A stretch of 64,000 bases of DNA from an uncultured Acetatifactor sp. (GTDB taxonomy: Bacteria > Bacillota > Clostridia > Lachnospirales > Lachnospiraceae). A program made the position numbers and the translations under genes. Below are positions 57,752 through 64,000 of the stretch, piece after piece. The DNA is taken from NCBI GenBank assembly GCA_947624245.1, contig CANQJL010000009.1, positions 1 to 64,000 of the forward strand, written 5' to 3'. Positions within the stretch are counted from its first letter, which is position 1. Every line of letters starts with the position of its first letter. The notes below the pieces were generated by a model. It was given only the letters and a program-made list of their open reading frames with translations, did not search any database and had not been told where the DNA came from.

Positions 57752-58114
57752 CTATTTCTGTGCAACGCGGGATACGGTGGCAAGCACCTCCGCCTCGTCG
57801 AAGGGCTTCGTGATGAACTCCTCCGCTCCGCGCTTTAAAGCCTCCACCATCTTCTCCTTCTGTCCCGCCGCCGTGATCATGATGACCTTGGCGTCTTCCT
57901 TTGCCTTTTTGATTAACGTCAGCGCCTCGATACCGTCCATGACCGGCATGGTAATGTCCATGGTCACAATGTCGGGATTCAGCTCTTTGAACTTCAGATA
58001 GCCTTCCTCGCCGTTTCCCGCCTCCCCGACGATGGTGTGACCGCCGCGCTCCAGAGTAGCCCGCAAGATCTTTCTGGACGTTCTGGAATCATCTATCATC
58101 AATACTGTAGCCAT
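57752..58114 (-). CDS. CheY-like single-domain response regulator
   Basis: A 120-residue receiver domain only. ATVLMIDDSRTSRKIL has the acidic pair, VTMDITMPVMDG the phospho-acceptor Asp, and VIMITAAGQKEKMVEAL and KPFDEAEV the switch Thr and conserved Lys. The ATG at 58114 follows GGGAGG. It starts 14 bp after the CheX-like gene, which probably encodes its phosphatase. Confidence 0.93.
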   Translation of the reverse strand: MATVLMIDDSRTSRKILRATLERGGHTIVGEAGNGEEGYLKFKELNPDIVTMDITMPVMDGIEALTLIKKAKEDAKVIMITAAGQKEKMVEALKRGAEEFITKPFDEAEVLATVSRVAQK

Positions 58115-58128
58115 TCTCTTTTCCTCCC

Positions 58129-59001
58129 TTACATGATCTCTGCGACCGTAAAATACAGACCCTGTCCGCGCACAAAAATGGGAATCTTGCATACGGACCC
58201 GTCGCGCACCTGCTCCTTTACCCCGTTGTACTCAGGCGGCATCAGCTCAAGCGAAACGCCCTGTCTGCTCAGCTCCGAGGCATAGAGACCGTTGATACAG
58301 TTCAAAAGTTCACCTGCCGCATCCAGGGAATCCGAATCCAGACAATCAAATTCCTCCTGTCCGAAGGAACAGCACACACTCAAAAGCGCTCCGTCCCTCT
58401 CCGAGAAGCAGGTCACGATTCCTTCTTTGCCCACAAGCGCCTGACTTACCATATCGTCCCTGGGAATCTCGTCCACCATGACGCCTCTGCCGAGATAGAT
58501 ATTTCTGTTCACCAGACGAATCAATGTGCGGACGGCCATCCCGATGATATCCTGATACTTCTTTGCCTCATCGGGCAGAAGCAGCGGAATAATTCTGTCG
58601 ACATTGTCGCTCTTGATATCTTCCAGCTCCGAATTGCTGTAGCCGTACCGGCGCTTAAAATCACTCAACAGAAGATCGATCTCTTCCATCGTGATCAGCT
58701 GCTCGTCTACCAGCGCCTGAACAAAGATCAGATAAGCATTTCCCTGCTGCTTTAACAGTTTGTCGATCTGCTCCTCCGTCAGATACCCCTTGCTCACGGC
58801 AATATCGCCGAACCGCTGGTCCATCATCGCCTGCAGCCTGTTGACCTCGTCGGCCTGCTCGATGGTGAGCAGCCCCTCGTTCACGGCAATCAGCCCGAGC
58901 TTGACCCGAACGGCATCCTGTTTTGCCAGGATCCGGCTCAGTTGATCTTTTGTTATCTTTCCTGTCTCTACGAGATAGTTGCCCAAAATATGTTCTACCA
59001 T
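58129..59001 (-). CDS. CheX-like phosphatase with MshEN-like repeats
   Basis: A 290-residue fusion. Residues 5-28, 34-57 and 63-86 are three 24-residue units with 5-residue spacers, each fitting the MshEN motif (xLGxx[LA]V..G......L...L..Q). The MshEN domain is a known c-di-GMP-binding module made of two such units. Only the third unit keeps the first Arg. A middle helical part (87-145) leads to a CheX/CheC-type domain (146-290) with the phosphatase pattern DxxxExxN at Asp227, Glu231 and Asn234. It is co-transcribed with the CheY gene. Confidence 0.75.
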   Translation of the reverse strand: MVEHILGNYLVETGKITKDQLSRILAKQDAVRVKLGLIAVNEGLLTIEQADEVNRLQAMMDQRFGDIAVSKGYLTEEQIDKLLKQQGNAYLIFVQALVDEQLITMEEIDLLLSDFKRRYGYSNSELEDIKSDNVDRIIPLLLPDEAKKYQDIIGMAVRTLIRLVNRNIYLGRGVMVDEIPRDDMVSQALVGKEGIVTCFSERDGALLSVCCSFGQEEFDCLDSDSLDAAGELLNCINGLYASELSRQGVSLELMPPEYNGVKEQVRDGSVCKIPIFVRGQGLYFTVAEIM

Positions 59002-59057
59002 TCCGCCTCTCCTGTTCCGCGCTGTTGCAGCCGATTGACTTACGATTACTACATTTT

Positions 59058-59086
59058 AGTATATCTCTAAGGACGGCATGTGTCAA
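59058..59086 (-). promoter_or_regulatory. Promoter of cheX-cheY unit
   Basis: Minus-strand TTGACA (59086-59081), 17-bp spacer, TATACT (59063-59058). A sigma-A type promoter rather than the sigma-D type usual for chemotaxis genes. Confidence 0.8.
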
Positions 59087-59190
59087 GGAATATCCGCCTT
59101 ATCCTGCCGTCCATATCCGTTTTGTTTTGATGTGACATTGCTATGTCTCGAGGCGGCATATCCTGCCCTGTCTTGATGTAACTTTGCATG

Positions 59191-59218
59191 AAAAAACCTG
59201 CCGGCAAAAACCGGCAGG
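59191..59218 (-). terminator. Terminator of amino-acid transporter operon
   Basis: Perfect stem CCTGCCGG/CCGGCAGG (59197-59218), followed by TTTTTT on the minus strand, after the ATPase stop at 59231. Confidence 0.85.
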
Positions 59219-59230
59219 CGTTGATCCGCT

Positions 59231-60061
59231 CTATAAGACCTTGGACAAAAATTCCTTCAGTCTGGGATTTTGGGGATTTCCGAAAAATTCCTCCGGTGAA
59301 CCGCTCTCAAGGATCTGTCCCTCGTCGATAAAAAGCACTTTATTGGCGACTTCTCTGGCAAAGCCCATCTCGTGGGTCACAATGATCATGGTCATGCCTT
59401 CCTTCGCCAGCGCCTTCATCAGATCCAGCACCTCCCCTACCATCTCGGGGTCCAACGCGCTGGTAGGCTCGTCGAACAGGATCACGTCCGGATTCATGGC
59501 CAGAGAACGCACGATGGCCACTCTCTGCTTTTGTCCGCCGGAAAGAGTGGACGGATAGACGTCCGCCTTGTCCTCCAGACCGATACGCTTTAACAGGGAA
59601 ATCGCCTCGTCCCGCGCCTTTCTCTTAATGTCCGCCTTGCTCTCCGTGACGGGAAGCAGCTCCTTCCTGTGCTCCTTCGCCCTGAATACGTTGGTGAAGC
59701 GTGTCACAAGGTTGCTTCGTTTCGCCCTGCGCAGATCCTGACAGCGCAGATAGACGGGCGCCAGCATGATGTTTTCAATCACGGTCTTGTTGTGAAAGAG
59801 GTTAAAGTGCTGGAACACCATGCCCATATGTCTTCTGTGGACATTGATGTCCACCCGCTGGTCCGCGATATCTACGCCGTTAAAAATGATCTGGCCTCCC
59901 GTGGGATCCTCCATACAGTTCAGGCAGCGCAGAAAAGTACTCTTGCCGGAGCCGGAGGGACCGATCACCACAACGATATCGCCCTTGTCGATCTTGACGC
60001 TGATACCGCGAAGCACCTGCAGGCCGTCGAAATGCTTTTCCAGATTAATGACGTCTATCAC
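59231..60061 (-). CDS. Amino-acid ABC transporter ATP-binding protein
   Basis: A 276-residue GlnQ-type ATPase. Walker [11 protein letters not shown]-loop MVFQHFNLF, signature LSGGQKQR, Walker [13 protein letters not shown] and H-loop [12 protein letters not shown] are present. About 35 extra, strongly basic residues (about 107-142) are inserted between the Q-loop and the signature compared with usual 240-residue members. It overlaps the permease gene by 17 bases. Confidence 0.93.
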
Positions 60062-60755
60062 TTCTTCTCAGGCTCCTTTCCATAATCTTGATCCCTGCGC
60101 TGATGATCAGCACCAGCAGGATATAAATAAGCGCCATGACCAGATAAGGAACCATGAATTCATAGCTGTTGCTTCCGATGTAGTTAAACGCCACATAGAG
60201 ATCCGCGGCACCCACAAAGCTGACGACCGACGTCTCCTTCACCAGAGTGATGAACTCGTTTCCCAGAGTGGGCAGTATATTCTTCACCGCCTGCGGAAGC
60301 ACGATCTTCATCATCGTGGTGCCGAAGCTCAGGCCCACTGCCCGTCCGGCCTCCATCTGTCCCTGATCGACGGACAGGATACCGCTCCGCATGATCTCGG
60401 ATATGTAAGCGCCGCTGTTCAGACCGAAGACCCAGATGGCCACCTGCACGCCCGTCATGCGCTGACCCAGCAGGGGCAGCATAACGAAATAGAACAGCAG
60501 AAGCTGCACCACCATGGGCGTCCCGCGGAAGAAGCCCACATAGAAGCTGCAGAAGCCGTTCAGAATACGGGGCAGCAACTTATACTTGGGAATGACTCGC
60601 ACGGTAGCGATCAGCGTTCCGATCACAATGCCGATGATCAATCCCAGAACGGCAATGATGAGCGTGTTCTTCAATCCCTCTATCACCCTCACATAGCCGT
60701 TCTGATTGATAAAGATTTCTATGAATTTGTCGATTTTCTGACTAAAATTGCCCAT
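60045..60755 (-). CDS. Amino-acid ABC transporter permease
   Basis: A 236-residue His/Glu/Gln/Arg/opine-type permease with about five membrane helices. The N-terminal [20 protein letters not shown] and the EAA loop ([35 protein letters not shown]) are typical. It lies between the binding protein and the ATPase. Confidence 0.93.
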
Positions 60756-60767
60756 TGATCCTCTGTC

Positions 60768-61613
60768 TTACTGCATGGTATTGATAGATGCCGTGATAAA
60801 TTCCGCCGGTGCGGAGTCGATGATAACGTACTGGATATTGCCGTTGAGCATATCCTGAACTGCCAGCGCGCCGTTCTTATAGCCTACAGCCTCTGCCGCA
60901 AAACCGGCAAATCCCCACTCCTCGTCGCCTTCTACATAGAATTGGCCTGTAGTGCCGTTCTGTACACCGATCTTCACACTGGCATCCTTTGTGTTCAGTA
61001 TGGCTTCCACGGAAGCGGCGTCCGTGCAGTTGTCGAACTCCGTGTTGTCGGAGAGAGTGATCAGTCTCTGAGAGGCGATGTAATATGAATCAGAGAACGC
61101 CACATACTCCTCTCTGTCGGGTCTCACCGTAAGTCCCGCCATGGCGATGTCGCATTTCTGCTGGCCTACAGACAGACATACCGCATCGAAATCCATGTTC
61201 TGGATAACGAGCTCTTTGCCGAGATACTCTGCCAGCGCAGCCGCGATCTCCATATCCACGCCGTAGTAGCTGTCGCCCTGCGTGTACTCGAAGGGCTCAA
61301 ATGCGGCGTTGGTAGCCACCACCAGCTGGTCCTTGCTCTCATCGTATGCGGCAGATGTCACAGGTGAAGGCGTGCCGTCGCCGAAATACTTGTTGCAGAT
61401 CTCATCGAAGGTACCGTTGTCCTGAATCTCCTTGATGAAAGCGTTCACAGACTCCAGCAGCTCGGGCTGGGTCTTATCCACGCCAAATGCGTACTCCTCA
61501 TTCGTCAGGTCGACGGGAATCACTTTTGCTGTCTTTGCAGCGTCCTTGCCGCATCCGGCGAACGCGGATACAGCCAGCACTGCGGTGAGTGCGATTGCTA
61601 AAAACTTTTTCAT
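60768..61613 (-). CDS. Amino-acid-binding lipoprotein, apparently circularly permuted
   Basis: A 281-residue family-3 solute-binding lipoprotein (lipobox FAGC, Cys21). Residues 31-78 (LTNEEYAFGV...LLESVNAFIKEIQ...GTFDEICNKYFG) match the segment that normally ends such proteins. The usual N-terminal half begins only at residue 96 (LVVATNAAFEPFEY). Ligand-site features MDFDAVCLSV and CDIAMAGLTVRPDRE follow, and the protein stops at IIDSAPAEFI, where the C-terminal segment would normally continue. It is first in the operon with permease and ATPase. AGGAG precedes the ATG. Confidence 0.85.
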   Translation of the reverse strand: MKKFLAIALTAVLAVSAFAGCGKDAAKTAKVIPVDLTNEEYAFGVDKTQPELLESVNAFIKEIQDNGTFDEICNKYFGDGTPSPVTSAAYDESKDQLVVATNAAFEPFEYTQGDSYYGVDMEIAAALAEYLGKELVIQNMDFDAVCLSVGQQKCDIAMAGLTVRPDREEYVAFSDSYYIASQRLITLSDNTEFDNCTDAASVEAILNTKDASVKIGVQNGTTGQFYVEGDEEWGFAGFAAEAVGYKNGALAVQDMLNGNIQYVIIDSAPAEFITASINTMQ

Positions 61614-61646
61614 TTTTCTCCTCCTATACTGCAATATATTTATGGC

Positions 61647-61690
61647 GAATTCCCCCTTGCAGCCGGTAAGGAACCGGCCGGCAGGAATTC
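61647..61690. repeat. Inverted repeat in transporter operon leader
   Basis: GAATTC...GAATTC outer arms with an inner CCGGT/ACCGG pairing in the leader before the binding-protein gene. No T-run, so not a simple terminator. A possible promoter lies upstream: minus-strand TTGCAT, 17 bp, TACATT near 61720-61757. Confidence 0.45.
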
Positions 61691-61774
61691 CCCATCTACG
61701 GATATGAAAATAATATCATACCTGTTGTAATGTACCATTTTTTGTCGGAAAATGCAACATTTTTTGCGGCACAA

Positions 61775-63223
61775 TTATCCGAGCCGCCGCAGTACCTCCA
61801 GCACATAATTCCATGTCCGCTGTACGGAGGCAATCTCCAATCGTTCCTCCGTGGTGTGAATGTCTCTTATGTTCGGCCCGAAGGAAACGCAGTCCAGCTC
61901 CGGAAGCTTCCCCGCGAACAATCCGCATTCCACCCCCGCGTGAATGGCCTCGACAGAGGGCGGATATCCGTATTGCCGCTCAAACACTTCGATCATCAGC
62001 TCTCTCAGCAGAGAATCCCGTCTGTACTCCCACGCCGGATAGTCTCCCGTGCAGTTCATGGTTCCGCCGAACCGAGCCGTCAGGGCGGCAAGGCGGTCGA
62101 CCAGCTCTTTCTTTTCCGCGCCCACGCTGCTGCGGACGGAATAGCTCATCACCACCTCGTCGCCTGCAGTCTGCAAAATACCCATGTTCAGGGAAGTCTG
62201 TACCAGTCCCGGTATCTCCCCGCTCATGCTCTGCACGCCGTTTGGCAGCTCTGTCAGTGCCGAGACAATACGTTCCGCACAGCCTTCTTCCATGGCGCGG
62301 CAGCTCCCTTCCCCGCCGAAGGAAAGCTTCAGCGCAAGCTGCGGATCGGCATCACGATATTCCGCCGCGAACAGCTCATGACATTCCACCGTCAGCTTTT
62401 TGGCCGCCTCAAGGTCTTCTGGGCGAAGCACCAGCCTGGCGGCAGCTTCCCGGGGAATCGCATTGTCCTTTAATCCTCCCGACACCGAGACCAGCGCATA
62501 CGGCACCGCCTTGCGCAGCTCCTTCAGCGCCCGGCCCAGCAGCACGTTTGCGTTCGCCCGCCCCTTATGGATCTCCACGCCGGAATGACCGCCGATGAGA
62601 CCGCCGATTTCCAGAACGGCTTCCACTCCGTCCGCCGCCCTGCGCAGCACGGGGAAACGGCAGACAGCGTTCACTCCGCCTGCGCAGCCCACCAACAGAA
62701 CGCCTTCCTCCTCGGAGTCGAGATTCAGCATGATCCGCCCCTTTAGCGGGGAACAGTCAAGCCCCGCCGCGCCCAGCATTCCGATCTCCTCGTCCACGGT
62801 AAGGACCACCTCCAGAGGCGGGTGGGGGATATCGTCCGCGGCCAGGATTGCCAGCGCATACGCTATAGCGATGCCGTCGTCCCCGCCCAGTGTGGTGCCC
62901 TCCGCAAACACGACGCCCTCCTCCGCTCTCAGAGCAAGGCCGTCCTTTTCCGGATCCACGGCGCTGTCCGCCGTCTTCTCGCATACCATGTCCAAATGTC
63001 CCTGCAGGATCACGGGCCGGGCCTTCTCATATCCCGCCGCAGCGTCCTTGAAAATAATCACATTGTTGCATTCGTCCTGAATGTACCTCAGACCGTGCGC
63101 GACGGCAAAGCGCACGCAATAGTCGCTGATCTGCTTTGTATTTCCCGACCCGTGCGGTATGGCGCAGATCTCCTCAAAATAACGGAACACCGATGCCGGT
63201 TCCAATTCCGATAACACGCCCAT
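61775..63223 (-). CDS. pepD: Aminoacyl-histidine dipeptidase (M20 family)
   Basis: A 482-residue zinc metallopeptidase cleaving Xaa-His and other dipeptides. HLDMVCEK, the metal-bridging LGGDDGIA, DEEIGMLGA and GLIGGHSGVEIHKGRAN are present. Full length. The ATG at 63223 follows AGAGGTGGAG; the first 6 codons of the longer frame look like leader. It lies next to the amino-acid transporter operon on the same strand, fitting peptide and amino-acid use. Confidence 0.93.
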   Translation of the reverse strand: MGVLSELEPASVFRYFEEICAIPHGSGNTKQISDYCVRFAVAHGLRYIQDECNNVIIFKDAAAGYEKARPVILQGHLDMVCEKTADSAVDPEKDGLALRAEEGVVFAEGTTLGGDDGIAIAYALAILAADDIPHPPLEVVLTVDEEIGMLGAAGLDCSPLKGRIMLNLDSEEEGVLLVGCAGGVNAVCRFPVLRRAADGVEAVLEIGGLIGGHSGVEIHKGRANANVLLGRALKELRKAVPYALVSVSGGLKDNAIPREAAARLVLRPEDLEAAKKLTVECHELFAAEYRDADPQLALKLSFGGEGSCRAMEEGCAERIVSALTELPNGVQSMSGEIPGLVQTSLNMGILQTAGDEVVMSYSVRSSVGAEKKELVDRLAALTARFGGTMNCTGDYPAWEYRRDSLLRELMIEVFERQYGYPPSVEAIHAGVECGLFAGKLPELDCVSFGPNIRDIHTTEERLEIASVQRTWNYVLEVLRRLG

Positions 63224-63266
63224 GCTCTCCACCTCTTCCAAGTTTTCTTAATTTAATTTTCTACCC

Positions 63267-63312
63267 TGTTTTCTTAATTTTCCCAACATTGTTTTCTTAA
63301 TTTTCCCAACAT
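63267..63312. repeat. Perfect 23-bp tandem duplication
   Basis: Two identical copies (63267-63289 and 63290-63312) of a TGTTTTCTTAATTTTCCCAA-type unit, with a partial third copy at 63242-63260, between pepD and the rubredoxin promoter. Confidence 0.8.
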
Positions 63313-63316
63313 TCGA

Positions 63317-63345
63317 TTGTCTTTTGGGACCGGTTGTGATATAAT
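63317..63345 (+). promoter_or_regulatory. Promoter of rubredoxin gene
   Basis: TTGTCT (63317-63322), 17-bp spacer, TATAAT (63340-63345). The leader to the ATG is about 50 nt. Confidence 0.75.
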
Positions 63346-63401
63346 CCATTGTATGAATGGAACAAAGCTTCCAAGTACATTATCCGAAAGGAGTCTTAGC
63401 T

Positions 63402-63575
63402 ATGCAAAAGTATTTCTGTAATCCTTGTGGCTACACATATGACCCTGCCAAGGGCGATCCTGAGCACGGCATCGCACCCGGAACGGCGTTTGAAGATCTC
63501 CCCGATGATTGGGTATGCCCCGTGTGCGGAATCGATAAGAGCATGTTCCAGCCCTGCATCGACAATTACAACTAA
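63402..63575 (+). CDS. Rubredoxin
   Basis: A 57-residue iron electron carrier. Two knuckles [11 protein letters not shown] and [13 protein letters not shown] supply the four Cys ligands. [20 protein letters not shown] is the family-typical middle. The ATG at 63402 is chosen for AAAGGAG 8 bp upstream; a longer frame to 63357 is not supported. Transcribed alone, with a terminator behind. Probably serves oxygen or peroxide detoxification, as in other anaerobes (inference). Confidence 0.95.
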
Positions 63576-63583
63576 AAAGCCAA

Positions 63584-63617
63584 AAGAGACCGGTAGTTCT
63601 GCTATCGGTCTCTTTTT
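63584..63617. terminator. Terminator of rubredoxin gene
   Basis: Stem AAAAGAGACCG(G)TAG with CTATCGGTCTCTTTTT. It works on both strands because the flanks are an A-run and a T-run, and it overlaps the end of the converging gene. Confidence 0.8.
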
Positions 63618-64000
63618 ATTTCCTCTGCAAGGCGGTCCCGCAGGTATTCATACCGCAGCCGCTTTTCCTCTTTTGCAAAATGCGTCTCCCGAAGCTGTTC
63701 CTGACAGTCTCCGTAATCCAGTGCTTCCCCCTGAAACTGCTCGCTGGTCAAATCGAACACGCAGTCCCCCACAACGTTGAAGCAATGATAGTTTCCGCCG
63801 GGCCGCAAAATGCCGCAGACCCTGCCGCCGAAAATGTCCTGCATCAGAAACGCCGTGATCGAGCACTGGCCCAGCGTGGGATTCTGCTCACTCCACTCCT
63901 CCCGCAGACGCGGCGCGCAGGTGTCGGCGCACCATATTTTTAGGAGAATGTCATAATAATCCCGCGGGGTAAGCCCGTTCTTATCCTTGATATCGGCCGT
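63602..64000 (-). CDS. YunG-like family protein (partial, cut by window end)
   Basis: Only the C-terminal 132 codons are inside the window; the frame stays open to position 64000, so the start lies outside. The sequence reads ...KIWCADTCAPRLREEW, NPTLGQCSITAFLMQDIFGG, NYHCFNVVG, FDLTSEQF, a pattern I associate with YunG-like proteins of unknown function. Conserved Cys, His and Asp residues suggest a papain-like fold, but this is inference. Confidence 0.65.
   Translation of the reverse strand, partial: TADIKDKNGLTPRDYYDILLKIWCADTCAPRLREEWSEQNPTLGQCSITAFLMQDIFGGRVCGILRPGGNYHCFNVVGDCVFDLTSEQFQGEALDYGDCQEQLRETHFAKEEKRLRYEYLRDRLAEEIKRDR

Follow-up and report, generated by a model that had tools for sequence, protein, structure and literature searches.

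Family-3 binding proteins are a textbook case of the hinge clamp and serve as scaffold for many biosensors, and protein engineers deliberately permute proteins of this kind. A natural circular permutation is described for TpMglB-2 (Tp0684) and its relatives, for which a type Ic, or cluster Bc, is proposed, and the authors raise tethering as a possible reason for the permutation (available text of PMC4990184). This was the only natural precedent found in the literature searched. The same search found no description of a family-3 permutation or of several cut sites, and no assayed member of the permuted family-3 proteins.

The window (the whole stretch of DNA analysed, 64,000 nucleotides) encodes a protein that is very probably an ABC-importer lipoprotein of circularly permuted order. 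Specifically, the last ~54 canonical residues come first, directly behind the lipidated Cys, and a 17-residue linker joins the old chain ends, which lie in lobe 1. The best reading of the sequences is a real, conserved natural circular permutation that is apparently working.

Segment order of the binding protein

The binding-protein gene and its neighbours lie on the reverse strand, as follows (evidence after the semicolon).

60768..61613 (-), circularly permuted family-3 amino-acid-binding lipoprotein (type A), 281 aa; profile and structure-sequence matches
61620..61625 (-), ribosome-binding site AGGAGG; sequence
61551..61613 (-), lipoprotein signal peptide (residues 1-20) and lipobox Cys21; sequence
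61383..61544 (-), displaced canonical C-terminal segment, residues 24-77; profile columns 164-217, AF2 secondary structure
61332..61382 (-), linker, residues 78-94, from old C-terminus to old N-terminus; gap between profile stretches
60771..61331 (-), old N-terminal part, residues 95-281, with the first part of lobe 1, the first hinge strand and lobe 2; profile columns 1-163, Foldseek/VIA
60045..60755 (-), amino-acid ABC permease (BPD_transp_1), 12 bases after the binding-protein gene; Pfam/NCBIfam
59231..60061 (-), ABC ATPase of the GlnQ/HisP kind, with a 17-base overlap with the permease; Pfam/NCBIfam
59639..59749 (-), extra ATPase segment of ~36 residues lying between Q-loop and signature, with approximate limits; motif spacing
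59196..59219 (-), terminator-like hairpin of 10 pairs and a T run, after the ATPase; hairpin search

The open reading frame runs from an ATG at 61613 to a stop at 60768-60770, in agreement with the location, strand and frame given by a sequence-only reading made earlier. That reading also described an intact signal peptide, permease and ATPase, and all three are in place. Cys21 is invariant in 13 of 13 rows of alignment A1 and 63 of 63 rows of alignment A2. Pfam and NCBIfam label the three genes as a family-3 binding protein, a permease and a GlnQ/HisP-like ATPase, and the substrate is left unassigned because the NCBIfam matches fall below the curated cut-offs of the named equivalogs. An Rfam search of 58000-64000 matched no known RNA element, and no promoter-like site was found directly before the binding-protein gene.

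The protein scores 104.2 bits against SBP_bac_3 (PF00497; curated cut-off 26.4), in two stretches, of which the best pairs residues 97-217 with profile positions 1-98. In a search of the protein's own genome, profile positions 97-131 lie upstream of positions 1-97 in a single open frame. Alignment with the solved GlnBP (1ggg) gives the same order, pairing residues 96-200 with 4-108 and residues 31-79 with 175-223. A 217-column canonical family-3 profile, built from 11 canonical relatives, places columns 164-217 at residues 24-77 and columns 1-163 at residues 95-274; thus no column is absent or doubled at the cut. With 217 of 217 columns used once, the chain does not carry the two complete domains of a tandem substrate-binding-domain (SBD) protein. 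These profile matches establish the segment order and the clean cut. With the lobes assigned by homology, we read residues 24-77 as comprising the final lobe 2 strand, then the second hinge strand, and lastly a pair of helices completing lobe 1.

The sequence-only reading had put the displaced C-terminal segment at residues 31-78 and the normal N-terminal part from residue 96. The displacement is borne out by the two reversed stretches, with a start nearer residue 24. The chain was said to stop just after IIDSAPAEFI; this motif is near the end, and a few more residues (TASINTMQ) follow it.

In the rotation test, chains were trimmed and doubled in silico, and the best single domain was scored against the 217-column profile. 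The score of the window protein rises from 146.0 bits (columns 1-161) to 185.5 bits (columns 1-217 of 217), a gain of 39.5 bits, so that a PF00497 match in one N-to-C stretch, absent in the native chain with its two reversed stretches, is present only once the chain is rotated. Because of the reversed order, we file the protein as a permuted variant of PF00497 and not as a regular member. The test took in all 175 frames matching the profile. The gain is 26-63 bits for 110 frames with the cut of the window protein (type A, 109 distinct proteins), 57-156 bits for 35 frames of type B and 58-66 bits for three frames of type C, the latter two types being cut elsewhere (see below). The 23 canonical controls, 11 of which are profile seeds, change by -3 to -2 bits. 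Two tandem proteins lose ~2 bits, L191 gains 12 and the kinase L154 loses 1.8. Since nearly all 110 type A frames were fetched by resemblance to the query, these figures measure the cleanness of the pattern and not its commonness.

No third profile stretch above 5 bits is present in any of the 148 permuted proteins, the window protein included, which means that there is no second copy of the displaced segment at the C-terminal end. The amino-acid contacts are kept as well: all 63 rows carry T162, R167, D266, F105 and F142. We take these to be the equivalents of GlnBP Thr70, Arg75, Asp157, Phe13 and Phe50, the first-part equivalences coming from the GlnBP alignment and D266 being the presumed counterpart of Asp157.

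Predicted fold, covariation and position of the cut

A one-chain AlphaFold2 (AF2) run demonstrates one confident predicted fold, with pLDDT of 93.2 and pTM of 0.81. In mature numbering, the ten-residue blocks over 11-50 of the displaced part have pLDDT of 95, 96, 98 and 96; the value drops to 85 where this part ends (51-60), and the tether together with the first strand (1-10) has 72. The predicted strands and helices of the displaced part cover 9-11, 19-21, 24-26, 30-45 and 48-57. In Foldseek/VIA, family-3 solute-binding protein (SBP) structures align mostly to mature residues 70-261; the place of the displaced segment is not demonstrated by these sequential searches because they cannot follow a permutation. 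The best structural match is 6ggp, a truncated Thermotoga ArgBP, and PfVFT1 (5jkq) is also among the matches, with 205 residues aligned at 9% identity. TpMglB-2 is absent from the fold lists, an absence that excludes nothing.

Covariation among 108 type A proteins bears on where the displaced segment packs. Pairs 55-130, 59-126 and 63-123 fit an antiparallel arrangement of the displaced helix and the first helix of lobe 1, and pair 62-130 links the same two helices in a different register. As a control, 64 of 70 rows outside the type A clade were kept, including two A-prime rows (type A cut, see below). In these 64 rows, 62-130 once more ranks first among the pairs that involve the segment, at the 100.0 percentile of all pairs, and 61-175 reaches the 99.7 percentile, while 48-152, 49-151 and 63-123 are unremarkable. 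The mean covariation of the segment with lobe 1 does not differ from that with lobe 2 (-0.0004 and -0.0008), and the lead of lobe 1 over lobe 2 falls from 8:2 among the best 30 pairs to 18:11 among the best 120. The signal would pack the displaced helix on lobe 1, unevenly across pairs.

Covariation is equally compatible with a permuted monomer and with a domain-swapped oligomer, in which the front segment of one chain fills out lobe 1 of the next and the working unit is a dimer. Thermotoga ArgBP has a swapped C-terminal helix, its truncated form is the best structural match, and a 17-residue linker could reach another chain. However, the one-chain prediction places the segment confidently, and the linker length is almost fixed (17-18 residues in 110 of 110 type A frames). 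We regard the swap as improbable. The permuted protein would instead fold as a monomeric two-lobed clamp, which is predicted to use the customary residues to bind a polar amino acid and then to pass it to the neighbouring permease.

The cut at column 163/164 corresponds to about GlnBP residue 168, as extrapolated from the 1ggg alignment. The second hinge strand of GlnBP is presumably 181-185. The cut therefore appears to fall within lobe 2, separating the final helix of that lobe from its final strand, several residues short of the second hinge strand. A cut in lobe 2 leaves both hinge strands covalently continuous; what has moved is the attachment of the lipid anchor and of the free C-terminus. 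This weakens the earlier suggestion that the permutation may alter hinge mechanics.

Spread, other cut sites and descent

A collinear copy is present in at least 42 of 397 genomes of the same family. Forty of these are at 47% identity or more; the two others (G030 and G348, 37-39%) are both A-prime. The segment order was read directly in 38 of the 42. Among 299 genomes of the phylum, the genome of the window and G180, both of the same family, are the only two with a collinear type A match when E is limited to 1e-30. The permuted order is found in 80 of the 80 best named loci, a count favoured by the ranking, which is by similarity to the permuted query. Family labels of these loci are Lachnospiraceae (49), Oscillospiraceae (9), Eubacteriaceae (6) and Clostridiaceae (1), with none for 15.

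Permease and ATPase genes lie directly behind the type A gene in 72 of these 80 loci, two in-frame fusions to the permease (L118 and L123) being counted among them. In two loci the pair is on the opposite strand, and three (L101, L114 and L119) are ended by contig ends. For L105, L120 and L121, where the locus extends 10 kb behind the gene, neither a permease nor an ATPase scored over threshold anywhere in it. Compared with L010, the displaced segment is identical at 42 of 49 positions with dN/dS of 0.037, synonymous changes being near saturation; lobe 1 is tighter (0.006) and lobe 2 has 0.070. Comparison among loci thus establishes a mostly conserved operon and purifying selection, the latter acting on the displaced segment itself.

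These data bear on two further explanations. The front segment could be left over from the lost first domain of a decaying tandem, the rest being a broken binding domain, and the protein does lack a C-terminal segment at its end. Yet the segment is under purifying selection, it has invariant residues across 63 proteins, it covaries with lobe 1 and the operon is kept, which makes decay very improbable. For an assembly or sequencing artefact in this genome no supporting sign was found, and the collinear single-frame copies in other family genomes and the uniform order in the named loci speak against it; we give it almost no credence. Single open frames in independent genomes make both decay and assembly error very unlikely. 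The preference of the sequence-only reading for a natural circular permutation over decay is accordingly upheld by the rotation gain, the predicted fold, covariation, the collinear copies and selection on the segment.

At least three cut sites are in use, of which the window protein has one; the others escaped the earlier reading. Type B has the order lobe 2, C-segment, lobe 1, and ends after the first hinge strand; cuts of types B and C are near columns 95-97 or 126, compared with 163 in type A. Other arrangements occur in the following loci.

L039-L047; L048-L051, L155-L162, type B examples; profile stretch order
L147:1474-2295(-), L153:585-1547(+), L199:1399-2262(-), type C, cut in mid-lobe 2, from family f73 of the phylum
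L118:9968-11593(+), L123:9980-11584(+), type A binding protein continuing in frame into the permease through its new C-terminus
L191:604-2940(+), 779 aa, lobe 2 to C-segment, whole domain, lobe 1, permease
L052:413-3331(-), 973 aa, three near-identical binding domains in tandem, followed by a permease-like end
L154:10-2154(+), from a genome of the same family, Ser/Thr kinase domain (Pkinase E 2.9e-34), apparent membrane helix, family-3 domain

In all, 35 proteins carry the type B cut and three the type C cut. Thirteen of the 35 type B proteins examined exceed 400 aa, and each of these 13 includes a permease in its reading frame; permease and ATPase genes adjoin types B and C wherever they are in view. 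In 200 family genomes (taken as G000-G199, with which the listed ones agree), type B gives 41 near full-length matches and one cut match, and it also occurs in one genome of another family (G476). Of these 200 genomes, 22 have type A or A-prime, 42 have type B and none has both; the probability by chance is 0.004 when kinship is ignored, and kinship could explain why the two never co-occur.

L191 reads as two type B units in tandem, that is, a frame-shifted array. The near-identical repeats of L052 suggest recent recombination among them. L197 is a tandem protein and not type B. No tandem protein with a type A linker was found among the proteins examined. In L154 the family-3 pieces stand in type A order, the outer ones with only 13 and 11 bits, and there is no rotation gain, so the assignment rests on weak pieces; type A order is nevertheless likely, and one permuted form may be the sensor of a kinase.

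Trees were built on rotated sequences of the binding proteins (first tree, 28 of 110 type A and 30 of 35 type B rows; second tree, 54 chosen rows, leaving out long-branch rows such as L001, L003, L005, L204, L154 and L191) and on 52 chosen permease rows. Permuted and canonical proteins are intermixed. Type A forms one clade with support of 100/100 (14 rows) in the binding-protein tree and again a single clade (97/94, 13 rows) in the permease tree. A-prime (L053/L054) has the type A cut, canonical-like sequence and an ATPase spacing of 55. Its binding proteins group among canonical ones, its permeases with those of canonical L143/L152, and it joins type A in 0 of 200 bootstrap trees. An AU test of a single A and A-prime clade gives p of 0.285 for binding proteins and 0.161 for permeases, neither rejected. 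An origin of A-prime independent of type A is thus probable rather than demonstrated, because the AU test allows one clade. Type C groups with the type B binding protein of G476, and the permeases of type C mix with those of G476.

The spacing from Q-loop to signature is 91 in the window ATPase, compared with 55 in most type B and canonical systems. It is 69-101 in 70 of 70 measured named type A loci (a value is missing for 10 of 80 loci, three of them because the motif pattern missed), and 55 in two of two A-prime ATPases, 36 of 37 from type B loci and all 25 of the others. The insert does not mark the type A clade as a whole, the outlying members L056, L058 and L171 having spacings of 61, 55 and 55. 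Anchor length was likewise dropped as a distinguishing trait of permuted proteins; the median tether is 9 residues in type A, 8 in type B and 15 in canonical proteins, with wide overlap.

Possible role of the tether and relation to known systems

Canonical proteins have both ends on lobe 1, whereas the ends at all three cut sites would lie on lobe 2. With the ends on lobe 2, the lipid anchor is tied to the other lobe and the hinge strands stay continuous; in the fusions, the permease would likewise be tied to lobe 2. The effect of the permutation may thus be to move the tether from lobe 1 to lobe 2, a proposal that we hold with rather less than even confidence. It competes with a neutral permutation, in which duplication and loss left a transporter that works exactly as a canonical one, and which has close to an even chance. 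The presumed hinge strands and binding residues are kept, permuted and canonical proteins intermix in the trees, type A tethers overlap the canonical range in length, and a neutral rearrangement would give the same picture as a moved tether. On the other side, all three cut sites map to lobe 2 within its presumed limits, and the ATPase insert is present in the named type A loci and absent from A-prime, nearly all type B and the others; both could reflect chance and shared descent.

The permutation likely arose when two binding domains in tandem were trimmed, the first losing its front and the second its back. Tandem binding domains within the same family (L052) and the arrangement of L191 support such an origin. 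A wider and still more tentative scenario is that, in Clostridia, permutation occurred repeatedly from tandem ancestors at three lobe 2 sites, selection shifted the membrane or permease tether from lobe 1 to lobe 2, the two common topologies are interchangeable and displace one another between genomes, and a receptor kinase has taken over one of them as its sensor.

This binding-protein family has been re-cut in nature at several places, and the products look functional. The natural, conserved permuted forms offer ready-made cut sites accepted by evolution and make the role of the tethered lobe in permease docking testable. The several cut sites, with the tandem forms in relatives, provide a natural series for the origin of circular permutations. 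Order-based domain annotation will split or truncate such proteins.

The window protein shares with canonical family-3 SBPs (PF00497; GlnH, HisJ and ArtJ; type II) the profile match, the amino-acid contacts, the lipoprotein anchor and the permease and ATPase, and differs from them in segment order, columns 164-217 preceding 1-163. Types B (L039-L047) and C (L147, L153 and L199) belong to the same family and are also cut in lobe 2, at other columns than type A. In the tandem SBDs of GlnPQ (6h30) and in L052, the junction from C-segment through linker to the next lobe 1 resembles the front half of the window protein; among the matches listed for solved chains, 6h30 is the only one whose best stretch crosses that junction. 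Unlike the window protein, GlnPQ and L052 have two or three complete canonical domains per protein. TpMglB-2 is likewise a permuted, membrane-tethered ABC binding protein, but according to the available text of PMC4990184 it is a type I glucose binder. The window protein matches PF00497, and the two would be separate events in different fold classes. The permutation of TpMglB-2 needs a fourth lobe crossing (PMC4990184, available text), while the window protein would keep the usual two. Circular permutation is thus known in kind from type I proteins; the family-3 case and the use of several cut sites appear new as far as the literature searched shows.
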